A stretch of DNA of 64,000 nt from Tsukamurella paurometabola (GTDB lineage: Bacteria; Actinomycetota; Actinomycetes; Mycobacteriales; Mycobacteriaceae): positions 1,054,001 through 1,118,000 of the forward strand of contig NZ_LR131273.1 of NCBI RefSeq assembly GCF_900631615.1. Reading direction: 5' to 3'. Under the pieces are notes generated by a model, which had not been told where the DNA came from, did not search any database, and saw nothing but the letters and a program-made list of their open reading frames with translations. The stretch's first letter is position 1, and every line of letters starts with the position of its first letter. Shown piece by piece: positions 13,166 to 60,190 of the stretch. A program made the position numbers and the translations under genes.

Positions 13166-13256
13166 ACGGAGGGTATGCGTTCAGCGCATACCCTCCGTTT
13201 TCGCAGTTCAGAAGCGTTTCCACGGGACCGGGGCATGCGTCGCGCGCATACCCCGG
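13166..13256. repeat. Paired-hairpin intergenic repeat, copy A
   Basis: Two hairpins share the core ATGCG-N5-CGCAT. The first (13166-13198) has perfect 14-bp arms around TTCAG. The second (13228-13256) has 12-bp arms with one mismatch around TCGCG. The centres are 60 bp apart. The unit lies between convergent genes and may also end transcription. Its linker aligns with copies C (reversed) and E. Confidence 0.8.
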
Positions 13257-13292
13257 CCGCCGGACGGCAGCACGCCGCGATCAGCGACCGGG

Positions 13293-13619
13293 TCAGCGTG
13301 CCGGCGCCGCGCCGAGGCTCGCGGCGGCGGCGGTGAAGGCGCGCCACTCCTCGCGCAGGCGGGCCAGTTCGGTGCGTCCGGCGTCCGTGAGTTCGTAGAC
13401 CTTCCGGGCGGGACCGGATTCGCTCTGCTCCCACTCCGCGGCGATGTAGCCGTCGTTCTCCAGCTTCACCAGAGCCGGGTACAGCTGCGCACCCTTGATC
13501 GGCTGCAGCCCCACCTCCACCAGCGCCGCCGACACCCCGTACCCGTGCCTCGGCGCCGCCTCCAATACCCCGAGGATGAGCAACGGCAGTGTCGCCCGCT
13601 GCCACGCCGCCGTGCTCAT
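13293..13619 (-). CDS. PadR-family transcriptional regulator
   Basis: 108 residues, a winged-helix protein with the PadR opening LPLLILGVLEAAPRHGYGV, the Q-L-Y-P-A-L recognition helix (GAQLYPALVKLENDGYI) and the wing-to-helix segment RKVYELTDAGR. The C-terminal dimer helix is short. Its start overlaps the stop of the membrane protein upstream by four bases. PadR repressors commonly sit with HAAS/DUF1700-type membrane partners and control their own operon; a 10-bp palindrome upstream of the pair is a plausible operator. Confidence 0.92.
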   Translation of the reverse strand: MSTAAWQRATLPLLILGVLEAAPRHGYGVSAALVEVGLQPIKGAQLYPALVKLENDGYIAAEWEQSESGPARKVYELTDAGRTELARLREEWRAFTAAAASLGAAPAR

Positions 13620-14617
13620 GCCGGAGTCTTCGACGACGATGCCGGCCGTGCCCGCCGCGCGCGTAGGGCGCTCCGGATCGACAACCAGAGCAGGCCACCG
13701 ACCACCACGACACGGAGCACGAGCCAGAAGCCCGAACTGTCAGGAAGGAACGAGGCGTGGAGCAGCGCGAAACCGAACCACCCAGCCGCGCCCCACCACA
13801 GTCGCCTGCTCGGCGTCGCGGGATCGTCCGCCACGAGCCTGAGCGCAAGAGCATCGGGCCGGCCGTACTCGTCGAAGGCTCTGGTACTCAGCCCTTCCCG
13901 CAGCGTGCGTTCGTGCTCGCGCACGACGGCGCGCGGCGTGCCCTTCGCCAGCAGCACGCCGCGGAACCTGGAGAACCATTCCTCGTCGTCGAACGTCGTG
14001 CGCGGTACCCGCGCAGGTACGGCCCGCGCCACCACGAGCACGACCACCCCCGGGAGGAGGAGACCGATCGCGGCCGCCCACGCCGGGAGGCCGCCGATCA
14101 GCACCGTGCTCCGGCCGGACCACTCGACCTGCGATCCGCCGACGCCCACCGCCAGTACGGCGAGCGCGGCCAGTAGCCCCGCAACCTTGAGGCGTCCGGC
14201 CATGAACTGCATCGATGCGGCACCGCCCAGCACCACCGCCGCCGCGATGGCGGACACCAACGCGACCCGCCCCACCGTGACGTCGACCCGTCCGCCGCCC
14301 AGCAGGACCATGACCGCCGCGATCAACCCCACGAAGATCAGCGACACTCCGCCGAACTCGAGCGCGTCGCGCACCCCGGCGCTCTCCGTGGCCATCGCCT
14401 CCGCATCGGAGACCGCGAGTTCGGCAGCATCCTCCGCCGCGAGGACATCGGGGTTCCCGAACAACTCGGCCGCCGGTTCCTCAGCTGCTTCGACGGCCGT
14501 GATGAGTTCCTCCTGCCGGCTGCTGCTGACGTCCAACGAGACGCCGGCCTTCGCCAGACCCAGGATGTACCGCGCCGCCCAAGGCCGGTCCCCCTCGGGC
14601 CAGTCGTCGACGGCCAT
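13616..14617 (-). CDS. Membrane protein with HAAS-like N-terminal domain, PadR partner
   Basis: 333 residues. The N-terminal 75 are acidic and helical (including VEAAEEPAAELFGNPDVLA) and resemble the HAAS signalling domain found beside PadR regulators. About six hydrophobic segments follow: four in the middle, and two near the end that flank a soluble loop (TFDDEEWFSRFRGVLLAKG). The C-terminal tail is basic. The ATG at 14617 has TAGGAG five bases upstream; a GTG at 14620 is too close to it. It is the first gene of the PadR pair. The function is unknown; a membrane stress or ligand signal passed to PadR would be inference. Confidence 0.75.
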   Translation of the reverse strand: MAVDDWPEGDRPWAARYILGLAKAGVSLDVSSSRQEELITAVEAAEEPAAELFGNPDVLAAEDAAELAVSDAEAMATESAGVRDALEFGGVSLIFVGLIAAVMVLLGGGRVDVTVGRVALVSAIAAAVVLGGAASMQFMAGRLKVAGLLAALAVLAVGVGGSQVEWSGRSTVLIGGLPAWAAAIGLLLPGVVVLVVARAVPARVPRTTFDDEEWFSRFRGVLLAKGTPRAVVREHERTLREGLSTRAFDEYGRPDALALRLVADDPATPSRRLWWGAAGWFGFALLHASFLPDSSGFWLVLRVVVVGGLLWLSIRSALRARRARPASSSKTPA

Positions 14618-14643
14618 CACTACTCCTACCTAGATCGGATTTG

Positions 14644-14653
14644 TATCTAGATA
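14644..14653. promoter_or_regulatory. Candidate PadR operator
   Basis: TATCTAGATA, a 10-bp perfect palindrome in an AT-rich patch that is unusual for this window, lies 27 bp upstream of the membrane protein start. A related CCTAGATC lies closer to the gene. The position fits autoregulation by the PadR encoded in the same operon. Confidence 0.5.
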
Positions 14654-14690
14654 TAGCCAGTGGAGGCGCGCGCAGGCAACGGGCCGACGC

Positions 14691-14777
14691 CGCGGGGTAT
14701 GCGCGGGACGCATACCCCGCGCGTCTTTCGCGGCGCTCCTACCTGCAGTTTTCCGAGGTATGCGCGGCGCGCATGGC
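14691..14777. repeat. Paired-hairpin intergenic repeat, copy B
   Basis: The first hairpin (14691-14721) has perfect 13-bp arms around CGGGA. The second core (14757-14777) is GGTATGCG-CGGCG-CGCATGGC, with imperfect outer pairs. The centres are 61 bp apart. It lies between the crtB 3' end and the upstream region of the HAAS-like gene. Confidence 0.75.
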
Positions 14778-14797
14778 TGTCGCGCGCGACGACCGCT

Positions 14798-15616
14798 TCA
14801 CCGCGAGGCCACGAGCGAGCGGGCGAGGACCGTCGCCTTCCGCGGCGCCGGGACGCGGACGCGGCCGGACCGCGCACCGTCGAGCCCGGCGGCGCGGAGG
14901 CGCTGCAGGAGCTCGCCGTAGAGGTCGGCGGCGGCCCGTACGCCGCGCTGGACGTCCCGCGGGAGTCGCGCGATGCCGGCGCGGCCGGCGGCGAGGTCGG
15001 AGGCGGCGTCATCGAGGGCATCGTCGAAGGCGCGCTGCGTGAGCTCCGGCAGGTAGGCGCGCCCGAGCCGCAGCTCGTCGTCGGTGAGGTCGCGGAGGAA
15101 GTTCACCTTCTGGAAGGCAGCGCCGAGACGCAGGGCGTCGGGGGCGAGCCGGTCGTAGTCCGACGGCGCGACCCCCACCAGGTAGGCGCGCAGACACATC
15201 AGCCCGACGACCTCGGCCGAGCCGTGGATATAGGCGGCGAGCGACTCTGCCGTGTGCGGCGCCGGCGTCAGATCCGCACGCATGGAGGCGAAGAAGGGCC
15301 TGGTCAGTTCGGCGCCGAAGCCGGTCGCGCGGGCGGTGCGGGCGAAGGCGTGCACCACGAGGTTCGCGCTGAAACCCTCGTCGATCGCGCGTTCCACGGC
15401 CTCCTCCAGCGCGTCGAGATGCGCTCGGGGGTCGGTGGGGCAGGCACCGTCGACCACCTCGTCCGCGACCCGCACCAGGCCGTAGATCGACGTGATGTGC
15501 TCGCGCACGCGACGCGGCATCAGGCGCGCGGCCAGGGAGAACGAGGTGGAATAGTCGCGGATCACCACCGCGGAGGCCGCCACGGCGGCGCGGCTGTACC
15601 GCTCACTCGAATCCAT
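14798..15616 (-). CDS. crtB: Phytoene/squalene synthase family protein
   Basis: 272 residues. The trans-isoprenyl head-to-head synthase motifs are present: the SFSLAARLMP entry helix, a first Asp-rich site ADEVVDG and a second site in NFLRDLTDDE. The family joins two prenyl diphosphates, usually geranylgeranyl diphosphate, to give phytoene. It is slightly shorter than typical CrtB (about 300). The CrtI-like gene is 11 kb away and no cyclase or prenyltransferase is nearby, so the pathway is split. The ATG at 15616 fits the family N-terminus. It is divergent from xthA by 59 bp. Confidence 0.88.
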   Translation of the reverse strand: MDSSERYSRAAVAASAVVIRDYSTSFSLAARLMPRRVREHITSIYGLVRVADEVVDGACPTDPRAHLDALEEAVERAIDEGFSANLVVHAFARTARATGFGAELTRPFFASMRADLTPAPHTAESLAAYIHGSAEVVGLMCLRAYLVGVAPSDYDRLAPDALRLGAAFQKVNFLRDLTDDELRLGRAYLPELTQRAFDDALDDAASDLAAGRAGIARLPRDVQRGVRAAADLYGELLQRLRAAGLDGARSGRVRVPAPRKATVLARSLVASR

Positions 15617-15675
15617 GCCACCAGTGTCCCGACCGCGAGAACCGACCCGTCAGGGCACCCCGATACGGTGGGTGC

Positions 15676-16545
15676 ATGCGCGTCGCCACCTGGAATGTGA
15701 ACTCGGTCAAGCAGCGGCACGGCAGGCTGCTCGAGTGGCTGGACTCGCGCCGGCCGGACGTCGTCTGCCTGCAGGAACTCAAGCTGACGGACGACGCCTT
15801 CGCCACGTTGATCGGTCCGGACCTGGAGGAGCGCGGCTACGAGTTCGCCACCGCGGGCCAGCCGCAGTGGAACGGCTCCGCACTGCTCTCCAAGGTCGGC
15901 CTCGAGGACGTGGTCGTCGGCATCCCCGGCGCCCCGGCGTTCGACGGGATCGTGGAGGGCCGGGCCATCTCGGGCGTCTGCGACGGAATCCGGGTGCACT
16001 CGCTGTACACCCCGAACGGTCGCGAGATCGACTCCGACCACTACGCGTACAAACTGGAGTGGCTCGCCGCCCTCGCCGCGCAGGTGCGGGCCGACACCGT
16101 GCCCCAACTGGTCTGCGGCGACATGAACATCGCCCCGACGGACGAGGACGTCTTCGACCCCGCGGCCTTCGTCGGGCACACCCACGTCACCGCGCCCGAA
16201 CGCGGGGCGATCGCCGCCCTCGAAGCGCTCGGCCTCCGCGACGTGGTGCGCGAGCACTGGCCGCACGAGCAGGTGTTCTCGTACTGGGACTACCGCGCCG
16301 GCATGTTCAACAAGAACCTCGGCATGCGGATCGATCTCATCCTGGCCAGCGGCGAGGTCGCCGACCGCACGGCCGCAGCGTGGATCGACCGGCAGGCGCG
16401 GAAGGGCAAGGGCCCGTCCGACCACGCGCCCGTCATGCTCGATCTGGACACGGCGCCCGACGGGGACGTCGGCCCGATGGTGCCGCCGCCCTCGGCCGGC
16501 CGCGTCTCGCCGAGGGGCGCGAAGCTCCCCCAGGCCAAGGACTGA
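15676..16545 (+). CDS. xthA: Exodeoxyribonuclease III / AP endonuclease
   Basis: 289 residues of the endonuclease/exonuclease/phosphatase fold. The motifs are TWNVNSVKQR at the start, LQELKL (metal Glu), YTPNGREID, CGDMNIAP, the YWDYR loop and SDHAPV near the end with the catalytic Asp-His. The enzyme cuts DNA 5' of abasic sites and trims 3' blocked ends in base excision repair. The C-terminus has about 25 extra Pro-rich residues. A second AP endonuclease, nfo, is at 47283. Confidence 0.95.
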   Translation: MRVATWNVNSVKQRHGRLLEWLDSRRPDVVCLQELKLTDDAFATLIGPDLEERGYEFATAGQPQWNGSALLSKVGLEDVVVGIPGAPAFDGIVEGRAISGVCDGIRVHSLYTPNGREIDSDHYAYKLEWLAALAAQVRADTVPQLVCGDMNIAPTDEDVFDPAAFVGHTHVTAPERGAIAALEALGLRDVVREHWPHEQVFSYWDYRAGMFNKNLGMRIDLILASGEVADRTAAAWIDRQARKGKGPSDHAPVMLDLDTAPDGDVGPMVPPPSAGRVSPRGAKLPQAKD

Positions 16546-16556
16546 CCACCCGATGT

Positions 16557-16586
16557 TGCAATAGCAAGACAGTGCTCGCTACTCTT
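16557..16586 (+). promoter_or_regulatory. Candidate promoter of the Lcp-like gene
   Basis: TTGCAA, an 18-base spacer and TACTCT look like a housekeeping -35/-10 pair 30 bp ahead of the GTG start. The -35 box is part of TTGC-AATA-GCAA, a small inverted repeat that a repressor might use. Confidence 0.4.
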
Positions 16587-16615
16587 CGCCGAGATCATGG
16601 GCAAGAGGAGCGGGC

Positions 16616-17872
16616 GTGGGCAGCAGGATCGCTGAGCAGGACATCAGCCGGCGGGGCGTACTCCGCGCCGCGGGCATGGGAGCGGCGGGCGCCGGAATCG
16701 CGGCACTGGCCGGCACCCTGGGCACGGGCCTCGCCTCGGCGGCGCCCGGAGTCCGCACCCCGGACACCCCGGACTCGAAGAACCGGTGGGACCCGGAGTG
16801 CGATGCGCTGATGAAGTCGGTGCTCGAGCGGGGCGACGCCGGACGGATCAATCGCGCCCTCGCGCAGTGGGAGACGAACGCGCAGCCGGTGCCGGTGGGC
16901 GTACCGTCGGACGTGCGCGACTTCATCGAGGAGGCCCGCAGACTCCCCGACTGGCTCGACCCGCGCCTGATGAAGGGCGCCGACAAGTTCTACACCACCC
17001 GCAGCTTCTACCTGTCGGTGATCATCGGCTTCACGGGCGGCGTCATGATGTCCGTGATCCCGCGCGAATCGCGGGCGGTCTACTGGTCCGCGGGCGGCGC
17101 GAACATGAAGGACCGCATCGCCAAGACGTACCGGCTGGTCTACGACCAGATCGCCGTCGGCGCCTACGGCCCGCACGGCCGGGCCGCGACGACCGCGGTC
17201 AAGGTCCGGCTCACGCACGGTGCCGTCCGGCACCTGCTCCCGCAGTCGCCGCACTGGAAGAAGGTCGCCGACCAGCCCAAGCCCATCTCGCAGGCCGACA
17301 TGATGGTCACGTGGCACACGCTCGCCACGATGGGCATGCGGATCATGCGGAACTGGGGCGTGCACCTCCCCCAGGACGAGATCGACGGCCTGCTGCACTC
17401 CTGGCAGGTCAACGGGTACATGCTGGGCATCGACGAGGCGTACATCCCGTCGAGCTGGGAGCAGGCGGAGCAGCAGGCGCAGGTGGACCTCGACACCATC
17501 ATGGGGCCCACCCCCGAGGGGGTGAAGATCGCGAACATGCTCATGGACCTCGGACGCTCCGCGGACGGCACGCTGCTGTCGCGCCCCGTACTCGAGGCGT
17601 TCACGCGGTACTCGTTGGGCGACAAGCTGACCGATTGGATGCAGCTTCCCCGTCAACCGCTGTGGCAACCGCTGATCGAGGCCTCGTGGCCGACGGCGGT
17701 CGCGATCCGGGAGGGCGCCCTCACGCAGAACGCCCTCCCGCCGGACCTCTACCACCTGACCGATTCCATCGCGAAGACACTGGAACTGGTCTACCTCGGC
17801 GAGTTCCGGCCGATCAACATCGAGATCCCCACGGGCAACAACCCGAACTACGGCAAGCCCGCCTACCGCTGA
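16616..17872 (+). CDS. lcp: Secreted DUF2236 oxygenase, latex-clearing-protein (Lcp) type
   Basis: 418 residues with a Tat signal (SRRGVLRAAG, twin Arg at 12-13, followed by a hydrophobic Ala/Gly stretch ending about residue 43). The DUF2236 core contains TTAVKVRLTHGAVRHLLPQS. His201 is at the position of the haem-ligating histidine of Streptomyces Lcp, and the upstream IPRESRAVYWS and KTYRLVYD blocks also match that family. Lcp enzymes are b-type haem dioxygenases that cleave poly(cis-1,4-isoprene). The start is GTG 16616 with GAGGAG five bases upstream. It is convergent with the FBP gene (stops adjacent). Rubber as substrate is inference; other polyisoprenoids are possible. Confidence 0.8.
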   Translation: MGSRIAEQDISRRGVLRAAGMGAAGAGIAALAGTLGTGLASAAPGVRTPDTPDSKNRWDPECDALMKSVLERGDAGRINRALAQWETNAQPVPVGVPSDVRDFIEEARRLPDWLDPRLMKGADKFYTTRSFYLSVIIGFTGGVMMSVIPRESRAVYWSAGGANMKDRIAKTYRLVYDQIAVGAYGPHGRAATTAVKVRLTHGAVRHLLPQSPHWKKVADQPKPISQADMMVTWHTLATMGMRIMRNWGVHLPQDEIDGLLHSWQVNGYMLGIDEAYIPSSWEQAEQQAQVDLDTIMGPTPEGVKIANMLMDLGRSADGTLLSRPVLEAFTRYSLGDKLTDWMQLPRQPLWQPLIEASWPTAVAIREGALTQNALPPDLYHLTDSIAKTLELVYLGEFRPINIEIPTGNNPNYGKPAYR

Positions 17873-18367
17873 TCAGTCCTCGGTGCTGAGCACCTCGGCC
17901 ACGAACCCCGTCACCCTGCGTCGCAGGTCGGCGAGATTCTGCTCGCGGATCAGGTCGGTGTCCGTGCCCTTGTGGAACGCCGGCGGCAGTTTCCGGGCGT
18001 TCGCGGCGCAGCTGAAATCCTCGCAGATGAGCACGCCGATGGTGTCGCCCTTGCGCCCGGCCGAGCCGCCCCGTCGGACCGTGTACAGGACGGCCTGGCT
18101 GGAGAGGTTGACGTCGCGGCACCAGGTGCAAATCGCCTTCGCCTTGGGCTTGGACTCGGCCTGGGTGAGCAGGAGGGTGACCAGCCCGTCGTCGGTGGGG
18201 ACGCTGACGTAGGCGCGACGCGGGATCTTCTTGTCGCGCCAGCCGACGAATTCGAGCTTGGCGAAGTCGAGTTCGTCGAAGTCCGCCGGGAACGTGACGC
18301 GCTTGACCTCGCTCTTGGTGGCGCCGCGGAAGGCGTCGATGACCTGCTGCTGGGATACGGAATCCAT
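17873..18367 (-). CDS. FBP-domain protein, FusB-like treble-clef zinc finger (probable EF-G binding)
   Basis: 164 residues. The C-terminal half carries a four-cysteine zinc site, CTWC about residues 79-82 and C-x4-C in ICEDFSC, in the layout of the FBP C-terminal treble-clef domain (FusB family). FusB proteins bind elongation factor G and free it from ribosomes stalled by fusidic acid; housekeeping relatives are widespread in actinobacteria. Its stop abuts the lcp stop (17872/17873). The ribosome role is inferred from the family. Confidence 0.82.
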   Translation of the reverse strand: MDSVSQQQVIDAFRGATKSEVKRVTFPADFDELDFAKLEFVGWRDKKIPRRAYVSVPTDDGLVTLLLTQAESKPKAKAICTWCRDVNLSSQAVLYTVRRGGSAGRKGDTIGVLICEDFSCAANARKLPPAFHKGTDTDLIREQNLADLRRRVTGFVAEVLSTED

Positions 18368-18593
18368 GAGTGAACCGTTCTGTTGCTCCCCGGGCTCGGG
18401 CGCCGGGGAGAGGAGTGTGTGGGCAGAGCTGCGCAGCCGGTCCGGTGGATCGGCTGCGGGGCGGGGTCATCTGCCGTGGCGCAGGGCGCCGGACACTCCT
18501 CCTCGGTTCATGCGCCTCACCCTACGCTCCGGGGCGCTCGCGGAACCAGCCGATTTTCGGGCCCCGATCGATCCGTGACGGCGCGGGCGATCG

Positions 18594-19121
18594 TCAGCCG
18601 AGGGTGAAACGCCGCGCGAGCTCGGCCCAGGTGGCATCCGGCGCGGTGCCGGTGGGGAACCGCCCGTCGATCTCCAGGATCGCCATACCGTGCGCGGCGG
18701 CCCACAGTGCCTGCGCGGCGTGCGGATCACCGGTGACCTCGAAGAACGGGCGCCCCGACCACTCCTCCAGGCCCTCCGGAAGGGCCTGCCGGTCGAGCGG
18801 CCCGACGGTGGCGAGCCGGTACAGGTTCGGGCTTCGCCGCGCGACCTCCCGGTAGTCCCGGAGCAGCGCCGCGACATCCGTCACGGGCCGCAACGCGGCG
18901 CCGGACTCGGCGAGCGCCGCCCCGACGAGGGCCGCCTTCACCGCGTCCTTGCTGGCGAAGTGTTTGTAGAGCGACGGTGCGCGGATGCCCACCTCGTCGG
19001 CGAGGTCGCGCATCGTGATCCGCTCCCAGCCCTCGCGTTCCAGTAGCGTGCGGGCGGTCTCCACGATCTGGCGCGCACGCGGCGTCGCCGCACGCAGGGG
19101 GTCCAGCTCCTCGGGGATCAC
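18594..19121 (-). CDS. TetR-family regulator of the SRPBCC operon
   Basis: 175 residues. The N-terminal helix-turn-helix reads TMRDLADEVGIRAPSLYKHFASKDA at about 37-61, and the C-terminal ligand domain is short (TetR_C-type WAAAHGMAILEIDG). It overlaps the SRPBCC gene by four bases and is transcribed after it. Two palindromic operators (19642-19682) lie upstream of the pair, so autorepression is likely. The 226-bp gap upstream of the FBP gene has only a small GC hairpin (CTCCCCGG...CCGGGGAG near 18390) and no gene that I can support. Confidence 0.9.
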   Translation of the reverse strand: MIPEELDPLRAATPRARQIVETARTLLEREGWERITMRDLADEVGIRAPSLYKHFASKDAVKAALVGAALAESGAALRPVTDVAALLRDYREVARRSPNLYRLATVGPLDRQALPEGLEEWSGRPFFEVTGDPHAAQALWAAAHGMAILEIDGRFPTGTAPDATWAELARRFTLG

Positions 19122-19630
19122 CGGCCGATCGTAGCCAGCACCCGGTCGCGCAGCGCCGCGTTCATCGCGTCGAAACCGTCCGCCACGTCGATCGACGCCC
19201 CGGCCGGCAGGACCAGGACGCCGCGGAACCGCTCGCTCTGCGTGAACAGCGTGCCTCCGGCGACGGCCTCGAGCCGGAACGAGTGCTCACCGTCCAGCAG
19301 GCCCGGGACGAGCACCCGACCCACCCAGCGCAGCTCGCGTTCCGGCTCCACCGCCAGCACCTCGGGCCGGAAGGCCGTCTCGGAGCCGCCGCTACTGATC
19401 CGCACATCGAGGTCGCGCCCCACCGTCACTCCGTCGGGCGCTGCCGCGCGGATCACGAACGGATTCCACTGCGGGTACGCCGCGAAGTCGACGAGCACGC
19501 GCCAGACCTCGCCGGGCGGCGCGGCGATCTCGATCGATCGCTCCACCGTGCGTTCGCGATGAAGCACCACCAGCGAGCCCACGACCAGCGCGATCACCGC
19601 CGCTACGGACAGGATCAGATTCCGCCTCAC
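19118..19630 (-). CDS. SRPBCC-family protein with N-terminal membrane anchor
   Basis: 170 residues from GTG 19630, which has AAGGAGG four bases upstream. A hydrophobic segment at about 5-22 (LILSVAAVIALVVGSLVVL) is followed by a polyketide-cyclase/START-like domain (SIEIAAPPGEVWRVLVDFAAYPQWNPF). The ligand is unknown. It heads a two-gene operon with the TetR gene, under two operators of that type, so its expression is probably induced by the TetR ligand. Confidence 0.85.
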   Translation of the reverse strand: MRRNLILSVAAVIALVVGSLVVLHRERTVERSIEIAAPPGEVWRVLVDFAAYPQWNPFVIRAAAPDGVTVGRDLDVRISSGGSETAFRPEVLAVEPERELRWVGRVLVPGLLDGEHSFRLEAVAGGTLFTQSERFRGVLVLPAGASIDVADGFDAMNAALRDRVLATIGR

Positions 19631-19641
19631 ACACCCTCCTT

Positions 19642-19682
19642 GGCTAACACTGTTAGCCACAGCGTAAGCTAACAATGTTAGC
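19642..19682. promoter_or_regulatory. Two TetR operators upstream of the SRPBCC-TetR operon
   Basis: GGCTAACACTGTTAGCC (19642-19658, perfect 17-bp palindrome) and GCTAACAATGTTAGC (19668-19682) share the site GCTAACA-N-TGTTAGC, with centres 25 bp apart. The proximal site begins 12 bp from the GTG, next to the Shine-Dalgarno. Two equal sites beside a TetR operon strongly suggest that TetR's own binding sites. Confidence 0.85.
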
Positions 19683-19701
19683 CCCGCAATCGGGCGGAGA
19701 T

Positions 19702-20046
19702 TCAGCGAGCGCCGCCGCAGGACGCGTCGAAGGACGACGCGCTCCACCACTGCATCAGCGCCAGGACCACGACGAGAAGAAGGAACGGCACCAGGGCGGC
19801 GACACGGTGGCGGCGGGTCTCCCCGTAGACGAGGAGGCCACCCACTGCGCCGCCCAGGACCACCGACGCCCCCATCCCGAGGAGCCCCAGGAAGTTGACG
19901 GCCATCCGGCCACCCGCGTCGACGGCCATGCCACAGATGTCGATCGCGGCCAGATGCATCCACACCCACGCGCCGTACCCGATCGCCCCGCACCCCACGA
20001 GCACCGACGAGAAGGACACGATCTGCAGCGCGTTCCGCAGAATCAC
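19702..20046 (-). CDS. Small membrane protein of unknown function
   Basis: 114 residues from GTG 20046, with about three hydrophobic segments (VSFSSVLVGCGAIGYGAWVW, FLGLLGMGASVVLGGAVGGLLVY, VAALVPFLLLVVVLALMQWW). The loop with CGMAVDAG and the C-terminal Cys are unusual. I recognise no domain. The region between it and the DUF218 gene holds only a 33-residue ORF. Codon use fits the genome; the start is less certain than the frame. Confidence 0.55.
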   Translation of the reverse strand: MILRNALQIVSFSSVLVGCGAIGYGAWVWMHLAAIDICGMAVDAGGRMAVNFLGLLGMGASVVLGGAVGGLLVYGETRRHRVAALVPFLLLVVVLALMQWWSASSFDASCGGAR

Positions 20047-20099
20047 ACCGCGGCTCGTGTAACCGTTACCGCCGTGATGTCGCCCGCCGGCCGAGTCCG

Positions 20100-20201
20100 T
20101 CACGCCGGGCGCCGGCCGACGACGGCGTCCCGGACCGTGGCGACGAAGCGCTCGGGTCCGACGAAGACGAGGGCCGCGAGCCCCACCGCGGCGCCGATCA
20201 C
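20100..20201 (-). CDS. Possible 33-residue membrane peptide coupled to the DUF218 gene
   Basis: A GTG at 20201 overlaps the DUF218 stop (GTGA) and opens a 33-codon frame with one hydrophobic segment (VIGAAVGLAALVFVG) and a basic end. The overlap geometry is like genuine coupled genes in this window, but the product is too short to recognise and may be chance. Confidence 0.3.
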   Translation of the reverse strand: MIGAAVGLAALVFVGPERFVATVRDAVVGRRPA

Positions 20202-20773: not shown

Positions 20774-20866
20774 GAGTACATCTTACTGAGCAGGTAGTTA
20801 GGTGAACCTTCGCGCAAAGGCCTGCTGGTCCGCGATCTACCGTTAGGCCAGACGCAGTGGTTTCGC

Positions 20867-20894
20867 ACTCATGTTACTGACGAGTAACATGAGT
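20867..20894. promoter_or_regulatory. Operator of the TTACY-N4-RGTAA type upstream of etfD
   Basis: Twelve-base perfect arms, ACTCATGTTACT and AGTAACATGAGT, around GACG. The core TTACT-GACG-AGTAA (20874-20887) has the same form as sites at fadE5, fadA2/fabG4 and the TetR gene at 60251. A weaker match, TTACT-GAGC-AGGTA, is at 20783-20796. Confidence 0.75.
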
Positions 20895-20920
20895 GGCTAC
20901 CCAGCCCGCGAGGCAGAAAG

Positions 20921-24208
<3,288 letters not shown>

Positions 24209-25573: not shown

Positions 25574-25592
25574 GGGTCCGATCCTACCTTAT

Positions 25593-47043: not shown

Positions 47044-47109
47044 CACATCTTCCAAAGCGTTCTGCGACTCAGCCGGACCGATTCGTCGCAGAACGCTTCG
47101 GAAGATGTG
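47044..47109. repeat. Long inverted repeat, 25-bp arms
   Basis: Arms 47044-47068 and 47085-47109 are complementary at 24 of 25 positions, with a 16-base loop. The single mismatch is A-C on the plus strand but a G-U wobble on a minus-strand transcript, so a minus-strand RNA would pair fully. It lies about 160 bp upstream of the DUF1023 gene. Confidence 0.8.
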
Positions 47110-47143
47110 CGCACCGTCGGACCACGGAGGTCTAGGACGAAGA

Positions 47144-47223
47144 GCCATGCGCCCGACGCATGACCGACTCCCGTATCCGCGCCTCTGACCAGGGAGAACA
47201 GAGCCATGCGCGCGGCGCATGGC
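47144..47223. repeat. Paired-hairpin intergenic repeat, copy C (reversed)
   Basis: GCCATGCG-CCCGA-CGCATGAC and GCCATGCG-CGCGG-CGCATGGC have centres 59 bp apart. The linker aligns with the reverse complement of copy A (shared TCCCGT...TCTGA...GA-AAC...GAG), so this copy is inverted. Confidence 0.75.
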
Positions 47224-47282
47224 TTTCCCGAACAACACACCGACCCGACGCCTCGCGGGCGCGGACGCACTAGGCTGGGCGC

Positions 47283-50713: not shown

Positions 50714-50739
50714 TCGTCGGCTCGTAGCCACGAGCACCC

Positions 50740-50824
50740 GAGGGCGCTCCGACCACCGGTCGGGGCGCCCTCACCCGTTCCCGGGCCCGACGGTGCGCCC
50801 GACGTGCGCGCCGCACCGTCGGGC
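50740..50824 (+). terminator. Tandem hairpins after fadE5
   Basis: The first (50740-50772) has 15-base arms (GAGGGCGCTCCGACC) with one G-U pair and a three-base loop. The second (50785-50797 with 50812-50824) has 13-base arms (GCCCGACGGTGCG) containing the GACGGTGC octamer in both orientations. The first is a good terminator. Confidence 0.75.
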
Positions 50825-50877
50825 AGCCACCGTAGGATTGCTACCGACCTGCGCCGACGACCTCCGGAGTGCCCCGC

Positions 50878-51546: not shown

Positions 51547-51550
51547 TCCC

Positions 51551-53539: not shown

Positions 53540-53545
53540 GGCACC

Positions 53546-54652
53546 ATCGCACCCGCCCAGCGCCCCGGCCACGTCCCCGCCCTCACCGGCCTGCGGGCGC
53601 TGGCGGCGTTCGGGGTGTGCGTCACGCACGCCGCGTTCTGGGGTGGGGACTTCACTCCCGACGCCCTCGGCGCCGCGTACGCGCGGCTCGAGACCGCCGT
53701 ACCGGTGTTCTTCGCGCTCTCGGGATTCCTCCTGGTGCGGCCGTGGGTGCGGGCCCGGGCTTCCGACGGTGCGCGGGCCGAAGGGGCGGTGCCGGACGTG
53801 CGGCGGTACGCCGTCGCGCGGGCGTGGCGGATCCTGCCCGCCTACTGGACGGTGGTCACCGTCGTCTACGCGATCTACCTCTGGCGGCCCGACGGTTCGC
53901 CGCACGGTCACGGTTGGGGCGCCTACCTGCGCCACCTGACCTTCACCCAGATCTACGGGGTGGGCCACGTGCACACCGGGCTGACGCAGATGTGGAGCAT
54001 GTGCGTGGAGGTCGCCGTCTACCTGGTGCTCCCACTGCTGGGGGTGTGGCTCCTGCGGACGCGGCGGCCGTGGATCGTGCCGGCGGCGATGGTCGCGGTC
54101 TCGGTGGTGTGGCTGGTGCCGGCGATCGCCACGGAGGTCTTCGGCAAGACCGCGCGCTCCTGGCCGCCGGGTTTCGCCGCCGCGTTCGCGGCGGGCATGG
54201 CGGTGGCCCTGCTCGTCGACCGGGTGCGGCTGCCGCGATGGCCGCTCCTGCTGGCGGCGGCCGCCGCCTACGGCGTCCTGCTCACGCCCCTCGCCGGACC
54301 GATCGACCTGCGGCTGCCCACCGTCGCGCAGGGCCTGACGAAGTTCCTGCTCGAAGCCCTGATCGGGGGACTTCTGGTGGCGGCCTTCGCGACGGGACCG
54401 TCGCGCGTGCTGGGCTCGCGGCCGATGGTGTGGCTCGGCTCGATCAGTTACGAGTTCTTCCTGATCCACGTGATCGTCATGGAGTTCGTGGTGCTCGACC
54501 TGTTCGGGTGGTCGCTGTTCACCGGTTCGACGTGGCCGATCGTCGTGGTGACCACCGCGATCACCGTCGTGCTGTCGTGGGCACTGCACCGCGCGGTGGA
54601 GCGGTTCCGTGCGGCGGTGAGTCGCCCGCGGGCGGCGGCCATCGGGCGCTGA
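53546..54652 (+). CDS. Acyltransferase 3 (OafA-like) membrane protein, non-standard start
   Basis: About 368 residues with ten or so helices. The family N-terminus PALTGLRALAAFGVCVTHAAFW, which includes the catalytic His of the first helix, lies upstream of the first standard start codon (GTG 53615). Translation must therefore begin earlier. The frame is closed by a TGA at 53537-53539, and the only codon near a Shine-Dalgarno (TGAGG) is ATC at 53546. Such proteins acetylate sugars or lipids at the membrane. Either a rare start codon is used or the gene has lost its start. It follows YhgE by six bases and faces a convergent gene. Confidence 0.75.
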   Translation: MAPAQRPGHVPALTGLRALAAFGVCVTHAAFWGGDFTPDALGAAYARLETAVPVFFALSGFLLVRPWVRARASDGARAEGAVPDVRRYAVARAWRILPAYWTVVTVVYAIYLWRPDGSPHGHGWGAYLRHLTFTQIYGVGHVHTGLTQMWSMCVEVAVYLVLPLLGVWLLRTRRPWIVPAAMVAVSVVWLVPAIATEVFGKTARSWPPGFAAAFAAGMAVALLVDRVRLPRWPLLLAAAAAYGVLLTPLAGPIDLRLPTVAQGLTKFLLEALIGGLLVAAFATGPSRVLGSRPMVWLGSISYEFFLIHVIVMEFVVLDLFGWSLFTGSTWPIVVVTTAITVVLSWALHRAVERFRAAVSRPRAAAIGR

Positions 54653-54665
54653 CAGGGGACGGGGG

Positions 54666-54698
54666 GATGCGCCGGACGCATCGCTGTTCGGAACGACT
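54666..54698. repeat. Single ATGCG-N5-CGCAT hairpin, copy D
   Basis: GATGCG-CCGGA-CGCATC followed by GCTGTTCGGAACGACT. The tail matches copy F (CGCATCGCTG, two bases, CGGA-R-CGACT), so D and F form a subfamily. It lies between convergent genes. Confidence 0.65.
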
Positions 54699-54714
54699 AC
54701 TGCCCCAGAGTCGG

Positions 54715-55215
54715 TCAGCGGAGGAGCGTGGCGGTGGCGGCGTCGAGGATCGGGCGGCGCTGCGCGGACGGGGCCTCCCAGAGCTTCCCGGTGAGGCCTT
54801 CCAGGGCCGCGACCTTGGGTTCCAGCTCGCCCAGCGCCTTCGTCCGCTCTTCGCCCGACAGCTGGGCGGCGGCGATGATGCGGTCGTCGAGCGCGAAGAC
54901 CGCGTCGTCGAGGGCGGCGAGGTCGGACTCGGGCCCGTTGATCGCGGAGTCGGCGGGCGGCGGGACGGCCGGGGCGAAGGCGCCGCGGTGCACGTCGGCG
55001 ATGGCGTAGCGCGTGCGCTGGTGCAGGAGCGCCTCGGTGGAGGTGGCGTTCGCCCACTCGGCGGGCGCGCGGCCCGGGCGGCCGGGGATGAGGTCGCCGG
55101 AGTTGGCGAAGTCCTTGATCCGCTTGTTGGAGTCGCGGAGGAACCACACGACGCCGATGAGCAGGAGCACGGCCACCACCGCGACCACGGCGACGACCAC
55201 GATGCCGAAGGTCAT
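54715..55215 (-). CDS. Membrane-anchored hypothetical protein
   Basis: 166 residues. One N-terminal helix (IVVVAVVAVVAVLLLIGVVWFL) anchors a cytoplasmic or periplasmic helical domain (AALDDAVFALDDRIIAAAQL, LGELEPKVAALEGLTGKLW). No family is recognised beyond actinobacterial hypotheticals. It overlaps the CoA-binding protein gene upstream by four bases (ATGA), so they are co-translated. Confidence 0.72.
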   Translation of the reverse strand: MTFGIVVVAVVAVVAVLLLIGVVWFLRDSNKRIKDFANSGDLIPGRPGRAPAEWANATSTEALLHQRTRYAIADVHRGAFAPAVPPPADSAINGPESDLAALDDAVFALDDRIIAAAQLSGEERTKALGELEPKVAALEGLTGKLWEAPSAQRRPILDAATATLLR

Positions 55216-55634
55216 GCGCCCCTCCTGGAGATCCGCGTGCGGCGCTGTTCGATGATGAGGCAGCGGTCCTCGACGTAGAGCAGCCCGGCGGATTCGGCGA
55301 TCTCGCGCGCCTCCGCGGAACGGATGCCCAGCTGCAGCCAGAGCGCCGTCGCCCCGGCCGCGACGGCCTGCCGCGCGATCTCGGGCGTCTGCTCCGAGGG
55401 CCGGAAGACGTCGACCAGGCCGACCTGTTCCGGCACATCGGCCAGGGTGCGATACACCCGCTCGCCGAGGATCTCGTCGGCGTGCGGGTTGACCGGGATG
55501 ATCCGCCAGCCGCGGTTCTGCATGTACGCGGGCACGTCGTGCGCGGCCTTCGCCGGGTCGGCGCTGGCCCCGACCACCGTGATGGTGTCGTAGTCGCGCA
55601 GGATCTTCTCGATCGTCTGGTCCGTCGCGCTCAT
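55212..55634 (-). CDS. CoA-binding domain protein (YccU type)
   Basis: 140 residues with the CoA-binding Rossmann layout: TITVVGASADPAKAAHDVPAYMQNRGW near the start, IIPVNPHADEILGE, then VDVFRPSEQTPEIARQAVAAGATALWLQLGI. Proteins of this family bind CoA-like ligands without a known reaction. The ATG at 55634 was chosen; the longer frame runs into the intergenic region. It is the first gene of a pair with the anchored hypothetical. Confidence 0.88.
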   Translation of the reverse strand: MSATDQTIEKILRDYDTITVVGASADPAKAAHDVPAYMQNRGWRIIPVNPHADEILGERVYRTLADVPEQVGLVDVFRPSEQTPEIARQAVAAGATALWLQLGIRSAEAREIAESAGLLYVEDRCLIIEQRRTRISRRGA

Positions 55635-55663
55635 GACCTCAGTGTAGGACGGCCGCAACGACG

Positions 55664-55704
55664 TCGGGCCGTCCACGTGCGTTCGCAGCACGTGGACGGC
55701 CCGA
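55664..55704 (-). terminator. Terminator after fadA2
   Basis: Arms of 17 bases (TCGGGCCGTCCACGTGC and its complement) around GTTCGCA lie 16 bp after the fadA2 stop on the minus strand. This separates fadA2 from the CoA-binding gene. Confidence 0.8.
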
Positions 55705-55719
55705 GGTGCCGTTGGGGAA

Positions 55720-57003
55720 TCAGCCCTCGATGATGGCGGTGATGCCCTGCCCGCCGGCGGCGCAGATCGAGATCAGCGCGCGACCGCCGCCGTTCTCCTT
55801 GATCTGCTTCGCGGTCGAGGCCACGATGCGGCCGCCGGTCGCGGCGAACGGATGCCCGGCCGCCAGCGACGAGCCGTTGACGTTGAGCTTGCTCCGGTCG
55901 ATCGACCCGAGCGGCTTGTCCAGGCCCAGCCGGTCCTTGCAGTACTCCGGCGACTCCCACGCCTGCAGGGTGGCGAGGACGACGGAGGCGAAGGCCTCGT
56001 GGATCTCGTAGAAGTCGAAGTCCTGCAGCGTGAGCCCGTTGCGCGCCAGCAGCTTCGGCACGGCGTAGGTCGGCGCCATGAGCAGGCCGTCCTTGCCGCC
56101 CACGTAGTCCACCGCCGCGTACTCGACGTCCTTGAGGTAGGCGAGCACGGGCAGGCCGCGCTCGGCCGCCCACTCGTCCGAGGACAGCAGCACCGTCGAC
56201 GCGCCGTCGGTGAGGGGCGTCGAGTTGCCGGCCGTCATGGTCGCATCGCCCAGCGAGACGCCGAAGACGGGCTTGAGCGTGGCGAGCTTCTCGACCGAGC
56301 TGTTCGGGCGCAGGTTGTCGTCGCGGGTCAGGCCCAGGTACGGGGTGATCAGGTCCTCGAAGAAGCCGCGGTCGTAGGCCGCCGCCATGTTCGTGTGGCT
56401 GAGGTACGCCAGCTCGTCCTGCTCGGCGCGCGAGACACCCATCTCCTTGGCGGTGATGGCGGCGTGCTCGCCCATCGACATGCCGGTGCGGGGCTCCCCG
56501 TTGCGGGGGATGTCGATGCCCAGGTTGGCGGGGAGCTTGCCGACCAGCTTGAGGCGGTCGACGGTGCTCGACGCGCGGTTGAGCTCGAGCATCACCTTGC
56601 GCATGCCCTCCGAGACGCCGATCGGGGCGTCCGAGGTGGTGTCCACGCCGCCGCCGACGGCCGCCTCGTAGCGGCCGAGCTGGATGCCCTGGGCGGCGGC
56701 GTTGATCGCCTGGAGGCCGGTGGCGCAGGCCTGCTGCACGTCGAAGGCCGGGGTGTACGGGCTGAGCGGGCTGCCGAGCACCGACTCACGGATCAGGTTG
56801 AAGTCACGGCTGTGCTTGAGCACGGCGCCACCGACGACGGCGCCCAGCTGCTCACCCTGCAGGTTGAAGCGGCTCACGAGACCATTGAGCGCAGCGGTGA
56901 ACATGTCCTGGTTGCTGGCCTTCGCGTACGCACGGTCCGAACGCGCGAAGGGGATCCGGTTACCGCCGAGGATGGCGACCGGACGGGTTTCGATGTTTGC
57001 CAC
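55720..57003 (-). CDS. fadA2: Acetyl-CoA acyltransferase (thiolase) FadA2
   Basis: 427 residues. The thiolase triad is complete: Cys93 in QQACATG, His in [11 protein letters not shown] near 380 and Cys in SICAAGGQG near 414. The opening [19 protein letters not shown] and length match mycobacterial FadA2 (Rv0243). It cleaves 3-ketoacyl-CoA in beta-oxidation or condenses acetyl-CoA units in reverse. It is divergent from fabG4 across an operator of the fatty-acid type. Confidence 0.94.
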
Positions 57004-57045
57004 GGGTTTCTCCCAGTGATCGAGGGTTGCTACTACCGAGTATTC

Positions 57046-57059
57046 TTACTCTGGAGTAA
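57046..57059. promoter_or_regulatory. TTACY-N4-RGTAA operator between fadA2 and fabG4
   Basis: TTACTCTGGAGTAA, extended by C and G to 16 bp, lies in the 105-bp divergent gap: 43 bp from fadA2 and 50 bp from fabG4. One site could control both directions. Confidence 0.8.
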
Positions 57060-57108
57060 GTTGCTTGTCGATAGCCTATCGGAACCCCACACGGATGAGG
57101 TACCCCAC

Positions 57109-58467
57109 ATGCCTGATGCACCCAGCACGGACTTCTACGCGGCCTTCGTGAAGTCGGGCCCCGGCTCCTTCCTGGCCAGCCGCCTCGGCCTGCCCCAGCC
57201 GCCCGTCCTGCGCCGCTACCAGGCCGGTAAGCCCGCGCTCGCCGGCCCCGTCCTCCTCGGCGGCAAGGGCCGCCTCGTCGAGCCCGTCCGCGAGCTGCTC
57301 GCGGACTACGACCTCGTCGTCAACAACGGCGGCGCCCGCGGCGCCGAGAAGCTGGGCGGCGCGGTCTTCGACGCCACCGGCATCACGTCGATCGACGAGC
57401 TCGTCGGGCTGTACGAGTTCTTCGGCCCGCAGATCCGCTCCCTCGGCAACAGCGCCCGCCTCGTGGTGCTCGGCACCACCCCGGAGCTCATCGAGGACAT
57501 CGACGAGCACATCGTGCAGCGCGCGCTCGAGGGCTTCACCCGCTCCGTCGCCAAGGAGCTCCGCGACGGCGCCACCGCCCAGCTCGTCTACGTGCACCCG
57601 GACGCCGCCACCGGCGCCTCGGGCCTGGCCTCGACGCTGCGCTTCCTCCTGTCGGGCAAGTCGGCCTACGTCGACGCGCAGGTCATCCGCATCACCGACA
57701 AGGACGCCACCGCGCCCGCCGACTGGGACAAGCCGCTCGCCGGCAAGGTCGCGCTGGTCACCGGTGCCGCCCGCGGCATCGGCGCCACCATCGCCGAGGT
57801 CCTCTCGCGCGACGGTGCCCACGTCATCGCCGCCGACATCCCCGCCGCCGGCGAGGCTCTGTCCGCCGTCGCGAACAAGGTCGGCGGCACGGCGCTGCCC
57901 CTCGACGTGACCGCCGAGGACGCCGGCAAGAAGGTCGCCGAGCTGGTGAAGTCGCGCCACAGCGGCCTCGACATCGTCGTCAACAACGCCGGTATCACCC
58001 GCGACAAGCTGCTCGCCAACATGGACGAGGGCCGCTGGAACTCGGTCATGGCCGTCAACCTCAAGGCGCCGAAGCAACTGGTCGACGACCTGCTCGCCGA
58101 AGACGCGCTGAACGAGGGCGGCGCCGTCGTCGACGTCTCGTCGATCGCCGGCATCGCGGGCAACCGCGGCCAGACCAACTACGGCGCGACCAAGGCCGGC
58201 GTCATCGGCATCGTCGACGCCTACACCCCCGTCCTGGCGGAGAAGAACATCACCATCAACGCCGTGGCCCCCGGTTTCATCGAGACCGCCATGACCGCGG
58301 CGATCCCGCTGGCGACCCGCCAGGCCGGCCGTCTCATGAACTCGCTGCAGCAGGGTGGCCAGACGGTCGACGTGGCCGAGACCATCTCCTACTTCGCCTC
58401 GCCCGCCTCTGCGGCCGTGACCGGCAACGTCGTGCGCGTGTGCGGGCAGAGCCTGCTGGGGGCCTGA
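57109..58467 (+). CDS. fabG4: 3-oxoacyl-ACP/CoA reductase FabG4 (two-domain high-molecular-weight FabG)
   Basis: 452 residues. The N-terminal 200 are a degenerate flavodoxin-like domain, as in mycobacterial FabG4. The C-terminal SDR has [16 protein letters not shown] near 222, NNAG and catalytic Tyr358-Lys362 (YGATK), and ends with the GQSLLGA-type tail. It uses NAD(H) on 3-oxoacyl-CoA in mycobacteria. It overlaps the htdX region by only a two-base gap, so the two form an operon, as in Rv0241c-Rv0242c. Confidence 0.93.
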
Positions 58468-58469
58468 TC

Positions 58470-59360
58470 ATGGGCACCAAGACCACCGTGCTGCAGGCGC
58501 CGCCGTCGAGCCTGTCCGTGCTCACGCGCGGGCTGCGCGGCATCCTGCCCGTGATCGGCAAGCAGGGGCCGCTCAAGCCGGAGACCCCGCTGCCGGACCG
58601 GACCGTCGAGCTCACCGTCGACGTGGATCCCGTGCGGGTCGGCGAGTACTGCGACGCCGTCGGACTGAAGAACACCGGCGAGGTGCCCGTGATGTACCTC
58701 TACGTGCTCTCCTTCCCGCTGATCATGGACCTGTTCCTGGCCGACGACTTCCCCGCCGCCGCGGTGGGTTCGGTGCACGTGGAGAACACGATCACGCGGC
58801 GCCGACGGGTGGAGCCGGGCGAGAAGCTCACGCTGCGCACCTCCGTGGGCAACCTGCGCGAGCACCGCAAGGGCATGCTCATCGACTTCACCACCGAGTT
58901 CACCGACGCCTCGGGCGCATCGGTGGCCTCCGAGGTGTCGACGATGCTGATCCAGCAGAAGACGTCGCTCTCGGGCGAGCCGTCGGGCCCCGCGCCGAAG
59001 GAGGGCCGCCCCGGCGCCCCCGACGCGCTGCTCTCGGCCGACGGTGCGCTCATCCGCCGGTACGCCGGGGTGAGCGGCGACCGGAACCCGATCCACATGT
59101 CGCCGCTCGGCGGCAAGGCGTTCGGCTTCCCGTCGTCGATCGCGCACGGCGCGTGGACGGCCGCGGCGATGCTGCGCGTCGTCGAGGGGCACATCCCCGG
59201 CGCGGTCGTGCACCACGTGCGCTTCGGCCGTCCGGTGATCCTGCCGGCGAAGATCGGCCTGTACGTGACGCGCGACGAGGCCACCGGCGGCACCGAGATC
59301 GTCGCCAAGGACCTCAAGAAGGGCTTCCCGCACGTGACGGCCACCGTCACGCCGCTCTAG
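58470..59360 (+). CDS. htdX: MaoC-like 3-hydroxyacyl dehydratase HtdX
   Basis: 296 residues forming a double hot-dog. The hydratase motif is in the C-terminal half: RYAGVSGDRNPIHMSPLGGKAFGFP with the catalytic Asp/His pair, then AHGAWTAA. The N-terminal half holds the degenerate copy. It interconverts 3-hydroxyacyl and enoyl thioesters. ATG 58470 is two bases after the fabG4 stop. A UUCG-capped terminator follows. Confidence 0.9.
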   Translation: MGTKTTVLQAPPSSLSVLTRGLRGILPVIGKQGPLKPETPLPDRTVELTVDVDPVRVGEYCDAVGLKNTGEVPVMYLYVLSFPLIMDLFLADDFPAAAVGSVHVENTITRRRRVEPGEKLTLRTSVGNLREHRKGMLIDFTTEFTDASGASVASEVSTMLIQQKTSLSGEPSGPAPKEGRPGAPDALLSADGALIRRYAGVSGDRNPIHMSPLGGKAFGFPSSIAHGAWTAAAMLRVVEGHIPGAVVHHVRFGRPVILPAKIGLYVTRDEATGGTEIVAKDLKKGFPHVTATVTPL

Positions 59361-59371
59361 TCGCCCCTGTT

Positions 59372-59412
59372 CGACGGTGCCCGCCCGGCTTCGGCCGTGG
59401 CGGGCACCGTCG
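59372..59412 (+). terminator. UUCG-capped terminator after htdX
   Basis: Fourteen-base arms (CGACGGTGCCCGCC) continue into CGGC-TTCG-GCCG with one bulged T. The outer arms contain the GACGGTGC octamer and its complement. It ends the fabG4-htdX operon. Confidence 0.85.
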
Positions 59413-59471
59413 TCTCCGGGCTCGCGCGCCGGCCCCGTCCGGGCGACGAGGGACACTGATCGTTCAGAAGA

Positions 59472-59552
59472 GCCATGCGCGGCACGCATACCCCGCGTCT
59501 TTGCAGGTCAAGGACGTTTTCAACCATACCGGCCATGCGTCACTCACATTTC
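59472..59552. repeat. Paired-hairpin intergenic repeat, copy E
   Basis: GCCATGCG-CGGCA-CGCATACC (59472-59492) and GCCATGCG-TCACT-CACATTTC (59532-59552, right half decayed) have centres 60 bp apart. The linker (TTTGCAGGTCAAGGACGTTTTC) aligns with that of copy A in shorter blocks: GCAG-TCA and CGTTT. Confidence 0.7.
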
Positions 59553-59572
59553 TCTTGCCGTACTCTCAATTC

Positions 59573-60142
59573 ATGTTGATAGATCGAGAGCGCGAACGAC
59601 GCGACTGGACTCAGGTGGGCTACGTCCTGGCACTGTTCGTCCTGGTCGATACCGCGTCGTGGCTGTGGGCGTGGACCTTCCCGGAGAACCTCGGCCTTCT
59701 CGCGTTGTCGTTCGTCGGCGGCGTGGCGCTGATCGTCCTCTGGCTGGCATACCTGGCCGTCTGGTTCCGCAGGGTCCGCCGGTTCACCTGGCAACTCCTG
59801 ATCATCCCGGTCATCGGCCTGTGCGCGGTGGCCCTGCGCCTGACGAACGCGGTGCCGGACGCTCGCTGGGCCTACGACGAACCGCGCCTCAGAGCCGCGG
59901 CGGAGCAGGTGCTCACGGACCCTCGGGCCGAGTTCTACGACAACCGAGATCGGTCGATCGGCACCCAGGAGGTGTACGCCACCTCAAAGGAGGACGGCGT
60001 CGTGCGGTTCTCCATCTATGGCAACACGATCAGCACCACCCGACTCGCCTACCACCCCGAGGGCGCGACCCCGACCGACGCGACTCGGACCAGGGTCACG
60101 CACCTCGCCGGTCGGTGGTGGATGGAGACGTCCAGCGACTAG
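59573..60142 (+). CDS. Membrane protein of unknown function
   Basis: 189 residues. Three helices (VGYVLALFVLVDTASWLWAW, LGLLALSFVGGVALIVLWLA, WQLLIIPVIGLCAVALRL) are followed by a soluble C-terminal domain of about 85 residues with a beta-like pattern ending RVTHLAGRWWMETSSD. No family is recognised. Codon use and AT content are slightly different from neighbours. It lies between htdX and the TetR gene, where mycobacteria carry vapBC, so it may be a later insertion. Confidence 0.65.
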   Translation: MLIDRERERRDWTQVGYVLALFVLVDTASWLWAWTFPENLGLLALSFVGGVALIVLWLAYLAVWFRRVRRFTWQLLIIPVIGLCAVALRLTNAVPDARWAYDEPRLRAAAEQVLTDPRAEFYDNRDRSIGTQEVYATSKEDGVVRFSIYGNTISTTRLAYHPEGATPTDATRTRVTHLAGRWWMETSSD

Positions 60143-60155
60143 CGCGGTGTCGCCA

Positions 60156-60190
60156 GGGCATGCGTCAGACGCATCGCTGCGCGGAGCGAC
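60156..60190. repeat. Single ATGCG-N5-CGCAT hairpin, copy F
   Basis: GCATGCG-TCAGA-CGCATCG then CTGCGCGGAGCGACT. It shares its tail with copy D and lies between convergent genes. Confidence 0.6.

Follow-up and report, generated by a model that had tools for sequence, protein, structure and literature searches.

The stretch analyzed here comprises 64,000 nucleotides of Tsukamurella paurometabola (NCBI RefSeq assembly GCF_900631615.1, contig NZ_LR131273.1, forward-strand positions 1,054,001 to 1,118,000) and is referred to in full as the window. It carries six copies, A to F, of a dispersed element built around the palindromic box ATGCG-N5-CGCAT, termed here the ATGCG unit. Nine exact boxes are present in the window, compared with a mean of 0.10 and a maximum of 1 in shuffled sequence, and they start at 13175/13235, 14699/14760, 47147/47206, 54667, 59475 and 60160. 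Gene positions and gap classes were obtained with our own GC-frame gene caller, by which all six copies are intergenic, as the initial annotation had stated, A, D and F lying in convergent gaps, B and E in tandem gaps and C in a divergent gap. The copies are as follows.

13151..13255, plus strand: copy A, full unit (left arm, box 1, linker, box 2), 69.8 bits; box 1 at 13175-13189, box 2 at 13235-13249; convergent gap.
14692..14797, minus strand: copy B, full unit, 58.8 bits; box 1 at 14760-14774, box 2 at 14699-14713; tandem gap.
47142..47245, minus strand: copy C, full unit, 66.0 bits; box 1 at 47206-47220, box 2 at 47147-47161; divergent gap.
54644..54706, minus strand: copy D, single-box (left arm and box 54667-54681), 28.4 bits; convergent gap.
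59451..59554, plus strand: copy E, full unit with a decayed box 2 (59535-59549), 61.7 bits; tandem gap.
60154..60199, minus strand: copy F, single-box (left arm and box 60160-60174), 24.6 bits; convergent gap.

Four loci with two exact cores each had been described initially. This applies to A, B and C, but the partner of the box at 59475 is the decayed box at 59535, ATGCGTCACTCACAT. The spacings reported between hairpin centers, 60, 61, 59 and 60 bp, are as measured, and the linkers of A, E and reversed C align as claimed, as does that of B once reversed. The different tail that had been attributed to the two single sites is in fact the left arm, which full units also carry: copy D matches model positions 3-69 of 110, with neither linker nor box 2 recognisable, and copy F matches positions 3-48. 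The gaps of copies A and B hold units in other species too, full units are present in the gap of copy D in G004, G003 and G013 and in that of copy F in G005 and G003 (G and L numbers denote the compared genomes and loci), and the gap of copy E was compared across 13 other genomes.

The anatomy of the unit was derived from 74 units, namely the 77 exact paired units in the fetched loci minus one junction and two near-duplicates, a set restricted by selection to exact cores. The unit measures about 105 bp and is directional, consisting of a 25-bp left arm (consensus about GGGnnnGTnGTCGTTCnCRRAAGCC), box 1, a linker of 43-46 bases and box 2, which is followed by about RCCC. Conservation starts at -25 and fades about 5 bases past box 2. 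The box consensus is ATGCG-Y-NNN-R-CGCAT, while the linker contains A/T-rich DNA, a CGCAGGTCAGAGGC core and a run of T. Single-box matches usually correspond to the left-arm half of the model, which fits the prediction that box 2 would be lost through deletion between the boxes. A compound arrangement was observed at L316 (G005:C3:801150-801900), where two inverted units have one second box in common (arm, box, linker, box, linker, box, arm).

Further copies are present elsewhere in the chromosome. It consists of one contig of 4,698,699 bases and holds 38 sites, 30 of them between 705 and 1262 kb, compared with 1 site for the reversed pattern. Across 16 Tsukamurella genomes the single pattern occurs 3-61 times per genome and the reversed control 0-3 times; G009 (3 vs 2) and G006 (4 vs 1) are near the control, and G007 exceeds it (10 vs 2) although no unit was found there. 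Pairs with linkers of 43-47 bases occur in 12 of the 16 genomes and reversed pairs in none; random spacing is excluded. A model built from sequence only, R1, with 150 candidates scored per genome, detected strong units in 13 of the 16 genomes (each with a best E of 4.1e-14 or lower), no unit in G007 and G009, and one weak match in G006. Its match counts per genome are very unequal and overstate the units, because both strands of one palindromic place are included in them (54-56 matches in G000, which has 28 units, and 87 in G001). Outside the genus, 25 other genomes of the family and order showed the single pattern 0-9 times and its control 0-12 times. A scan of a collection of 84,980 species returned 62 stretches, 49 of them from Tsukamurella. 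The remaining 13, together with 3 viral contigs, were inspected by eye and rejected, being mostly tandem repeats or ATGC-rich DNA without the left arm, and no unit was found outside Tsukamurella in the family and order genomes, the collection or the viral contigs. Of these 13 stretches, 11 were scored with R1 (L168, L184 and the viral contigs were not), and 9 gave 15-31 bits, which probably reflects matches to the box; the best was L138 with 30.5 bits at model positions 26-104, and the Mycobacterium stretch L179 reached 17.9 bits at positions 5-104.

Whether the boxes act as RNA hairpins or as double-stranded sites can be judged from the way in which they vary. The loop-closing positions are Y and R, and they vary independently, pairing at the level of chance (39 vs 35.8 expected; 22 vs 30.3). 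The initial annotation had noted that bases flanking the core change in pairs. This holds in part. The first flanking base shows Watson-Crick covariation in 51 cases vs 29.3 expected at box 1 and in 49 vs 26.5 at box 2, also within genomes, but within a unit this base also tends to be identical from one box to the other (48 vs 29.9; 50 vs 28.4), and the loop-closing positions do not covary. Among 99 units, 19 imperfect boxes could be scored, and only 1 is compensated; by our own count the uncompensated changes comprise 6 of G.U type, 9 of A.C type, 2 of G.A and 1 doubly broken box. These counts reveal no preference of an RNA strand. Compensatory change is nearly absent from the core, which counts against the hairpin. 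Since the loop-closing positions do not covary and only one box is compensated, the boxes are better explained as a double-stranded protein site than as an RNA hairpin.

Conservation in orthologous gaps was measured in 30 comparisons, with the gaps located via neighboring genes. The cores were identical at 281/300 (94%) and 255/300 (85%) positions, the linker at 853/1340 (64%), the left arm at 544/750 and the loop middle at 99/180, where the use of perfect-core reference units and of the best-aligning place favors core identity. The Y..R class was kept 91 of 100 times in the 25 two-box comparisons. Subject to this bias toward core identity, both features fit a double-stranded DNA site under constraint.

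The structured RNA proposed initially is not borne out, and a transcribed element or terminator at gene 3' ends is quite improbable. No Rfam family matches over the copies in the window, and RNAalifold gives a covariation term of -0.11 and folds the two boxes onto each other instead. Most changes in the core affect a single arm, core covariation is nearly absent, and only the first flanking pair covaries strongly. In favor of such an element, the left arm lies behind the preceding gene in tandem gaps, with 16 units in the same direction and 2 opposite (one-sided binomial 0.00066), and local folding upstream of box 1 is stronger. This folding is only mildly stronger, at no fixed place; 7 of 71 units lie in divergent gaps, and a conserved, terminator-like hairpin, seen by eye in 11 of 14 genomes, comes first behind the stop codon of the MaoC gene, also in G014, which has no unit there.

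The placement of the units is characteristic. Of the 74 units, 46 lie in convergent gaps, 16 in tandem gaps in the same direction, 2 in tandem gaps in the opposite direction and 7 in divergent gaps, with 3 at contig edges. The convergent share is therefore 46/71 among the placed units, compared with 44/223 adjacent pairs and 13/79 box-free gaps of at least 60 bases in the fetched loci of this genome. Adjacent units no more than 1.7 kb apart in G000, G013 and G014 face each other with the left arms outward in 10 of 11 pairs, and further pairs picked by eye from the R1 matches show the same arrangement in 23 of 23. A regional bias was also found: the first 1 Mb downstream of dnaA contains 15 of the 21 gap loci of G000, 13 of the 21 of G013 and 10 of the 16 of G014, where 21-23% is expected by chance. 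The underlying table was compiled by hand from the R1 matches with one strand per place; it omits five weak places with 15.8-18.9 bits (G000 and G013 two each, G014 one) and an overlapping match of 23.2 bits, and keeps one place of 17.9 bits. We have no account of this bias beyond ancestry or host use. By eye, TTAAC sites, which belong to another repeat described below, are more spread in G014 than the ATGCG units.

Units persist in the same gaps across species. In the three gaps examined in 14-16 genomes, some absences look like deletions. A miniature inverted-repeat transposable element or composite, with the unit as terminal repeat, was considered and rejected: in 26 inverted pairs the interiors are not common to pairs at different places, the within-genome matches being limited to 36 bases at 83% (G003) and 32 bases at 87.5% (G000) and the others being between genomes. 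The genes between A and B or between E and F were likewise rejected as mobile cassettes, since they encode PadR-like, membrane or unmatched proteins and some of their absences look like deletions. Between A and B (window 13293-14620) lie a gene that we read as PadR-like and one for a membrane protein; several species have the flanking genes close together without these. Between E and F (window 59615-60142) lies a gene for a protein of 175 residues with no Pfam match, present in some Tsukamurella and absent in others. In this gap, L324 (G014) and L327 (G008) have no ATGCG unit and, by eye, another palindromic sequence, and the gap may host several repeat types.

A second repeat, TTAACAGCGTTAGC, was seen in an orthologous gap of other species and is present in 11 of the 16 genomes. 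By our own count, 50 of its 92 sites form inverted pairs 42-43 bases apart, and four such pairs bound elements of 1054-1083 bp. These belong to a group of nuclease elements (L256-L259 and L263-L301), about 1.05-1.08 kb where measured, which encode a protein with an AbiEi-like region plus a DUF559/REase_MTES_1575 nuclease and end on both sides in palindromic arms with a short loop between them. Their palindromes are of several types, TTAACAGCGTTAGC, TTGAACGACGTTC, ACATCTTTCGAAGCG, GATCTTCGGTGCG and others, and the TTAAC type also occurs as solo pairs of 57 bp. Of nine such proteins, 7 pass the Pfam cut-off for DUF559 and 1 that for REase_MTES_1575; the AbiEi match is weak (four proteins against PADLOC, best E 2e-7), NCBIfam gives one weak match, and among solved structures the profile finds one, 3HRL, at E 0.006. 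The nuclease profile matches all 16 genus genomes. An inverted match with a score of at least 14 surrounds the gene at 27 of 32 distinct places, with several palindrome types and without a shuffle control; as L287 and L288 fall short of the other loci in length, their flanks are not properly placed. By eye the elements occupy a gene-end niche. The window itself holds a solo pair of such a type, given in the same form as above.

47045..47108, strand (.): solo 64-bp palindromic pair of another family, ACATCTT..GCGTTCTGCGA / TCGCAGAACGC..AAGATGT.

Pairs of this ACATCTT type flank nuclease genes in L286 (G011) and L296 (G004). The pair in the window lies 33 bases from copy C, and another lies between two ATGCG units in G001 (L050).

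A connection between the ATGCG units and these nuclease elements is suggested by the linker. The 58 flanks of 29 distinct nuclease loci were scored with a matrix derived from 72 ATGCG linkers, and 20 of them reach at least 10, compared with 3 of 290 control windows taken from these loci; with the matrix reversed, 3 of the 58 flanks and 3 control windows do so. The flanks are related to one another, which makes the Fisher p-value of this comparison unreliable. When the matches were checked one by one, 15 of the 20 proved to lie inside the palindromic end (9 of the 29 loci), and 13 of these occupy the loop that separates the arms, which is the same place as in the ATGCG units. A core of the CGCAGGTC type in a loop between palindromic arms is present in the ATGCG units, but among the nuclease loci only some have it, at 15 of 58 ends and mostly in one family. 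TTGAAC-type ends score 12-21, where the ATGCG linkers themselves have a median of 17. The link is good for one family and thin for the others.

From these results, the reading that we prefer is that the ATGCG units are an old, non-autonomous family resembling REPINs, the doublets of repetitive extragenic palindromic (REP) sequences, seen only in Tsukamurella and probably related to mobile elements of the genus, of which the nuclease elements would be the autonomous members. A sequence-specific protein, presumably a nuclease, would read both boxes as double-stranded DNA, aided by the linker core as an additional signal; in the past it would have placed copies of the unit in gaps at gene ends. 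The enzyme would since have been lost, the units would now mostly be inherited vertically and lose box 2 by deletion, and the box cores would be held under some constraint. Among the three explanations offered by the initial annotation, the mobile element is the best supported, by layout, copy number, truncated singles and the linker motif in some nuclease ends. Several observations weigh against it. No near-identical copies were found among 364 within-genome pairs of fetched exact units (median identity 0.66, top 0.83), no clean empty site or target duplication was seen in the three gaps, whose boundaries are too diverged, and none of the genomes searched yielded an enzyme flanked by ATGCG ends. 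An exact ATGCG box is absent from all 37 fetched nuclease loci (32 distinct places). The two also differ in presence, G000 having many units and weak nuclease homologues (best 5.9e-10) and G007 and G009 strong nuclease matches and no unit; for the weaker profile matches, the comparison with unit places used only coordinates and visual inspection. Of the 20 motif matches, 5 are misplaced, 4 being host gene-end sequence and 1 at an outer edge, 11 of the 15 in-end matches belong to the single family TTGAAC, from about two gaps as judged by shared flanks, and TTAAC- and ACATCTT-type ends stay below a score of 10. Moreover, the one-sided dnaA bias is not predicted for a mobile family, and the cores appear to be kept better than would be expected of a neutral relic. 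Owing to the misplaced matches and the dominance of TTGAAC, support from the linker is narrower than the raw count, and our probability for the preferred reading was lowered from 0.57 to 0.50. A bolder form of it is offered tentatively: Tsukamurella may possess a REPIN-like system without a tyrosine transposase, in which an AbiEi-like/DUF559 nuclease spreads paired palindromes of several families, the enzyme of the ATGCG family being lost or unsequenced and its boxes now serving the host on one origin side.

Since the cores are conserved in an old family, a host function is possible, and a rather doubtful version holds that the unit is a site for DNA binding or chromosome organization, with a mobile origin secondary. 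Two degenerate palindromes of 17 bp about six helical turns apart would be bound by a putative genus-specific protein that bridges or marks the chromosome on one origin side. The paired protein site proposed initially is supported as far as the boxes are concerned, since their cores are kept in orthologous gaps and Y..R describes a degenerate double-stranded palindrome; the independence of Y and R, the agreement of the base next to the core between boxes and the clustering downstream of dnaA in three genomes, a regional grouping relative to the origin as expected of chromosome-domain sites of the parS/matS-like kind, point the same way. On the other side, two genomes have no unit, one has a single weak match and counts vary widely, the conserved, directional left arm and linker core would be needless for a simple palindrome site, and the linker core is common to some nuclease-element ends. 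It is unlikely that the units are relics only, that is, a dead family from an early burst that has no current function and survives where insertion is harmless. Decayed or truncated units in several genomes (e.g., G001, G011, G005 and G015), the lack of near-identical copies among the fetched units and the gene-end niche speak for relics, but the cores diverge far less than the linkers at the same orthologous places, subject to the core-favoring bias, and the Y..R class is retained. An ordinary REPIN family moved by a Y1 tyrosine transposase, the REP-associated tyrosine transposase (RAYT), is hardly credible: the doublet layout, fixed spacing, intergenic position and singles as remnants correspond to what is described in PMC3116915, but PF01797 matches none of the 16 genus genomes at E 0.001, where the control matches 5 of 14 known genomes. 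By this feature the ATGCG units are not a RAYT REPIN.

Comparison with known systems places the units as follows. The bacterial interspersed mosaic elements and REP sequences of Escherichia coli are palindromic repeats in gene-end gaps and proposed sites of gyrase or nucleoid proteins; their sequence, layout and host are unrelated to those of the ATGCG units. REPINs with RAYT transposases consist of two palindromes at a preferred spacing, are intergenic, leave single remnants and are kept as populations for long periods (PMC3116915, PMC8049555). They serve as the classic example of short sequences that persist as populations in bacterial genomes, and these papers tie them to Y1 transposases. 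The ATGCG units resemble them in forming overrepresented, intergenic doublets at a preferred spacing but differ in the lack of a Y1 gene in the 16 genus genomes, in boxes that are self-palindromic with degenerate Y..R positions, in the additional directional left arm and in the great diversity of the copies. If a similar layout did depend on a DUF559/Vsr-type nuclease, REPIN-like populations could evidently be maintained by a different class of enzyme as well, and a family whose function Pfam gives as unknown would acquire a role in mobility. GTAG/CGTC-tagged REPs lie mostly between convergent or same-direction genes and form dimers with spacers of 20-100 bp (PMC3733652), a paper whose main text makes no mention of Actinobacteria or Tsukamurella; the left arm of the ATGCG units is often GTnGTCG, with n = A in 19 of 74 units, but GTAG itself is variable there and is situated some 17 bases away from the box rather than at the stem. 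The nuclease elements of Tsukamurella are alike in their arms around a loop, in the linker motif (ends of 9 of 29 loci) and, by eye, in their gene-end niche, and differ in having palindromes other than ATGCG in all 37 loci, whereas in the ATGCG units a left arm is present and the linker spans 43-46 bases. In the latter, the cores are held while the rest drifts and the copies are concentrated on one side of the origin, which poses a testable puzzle.

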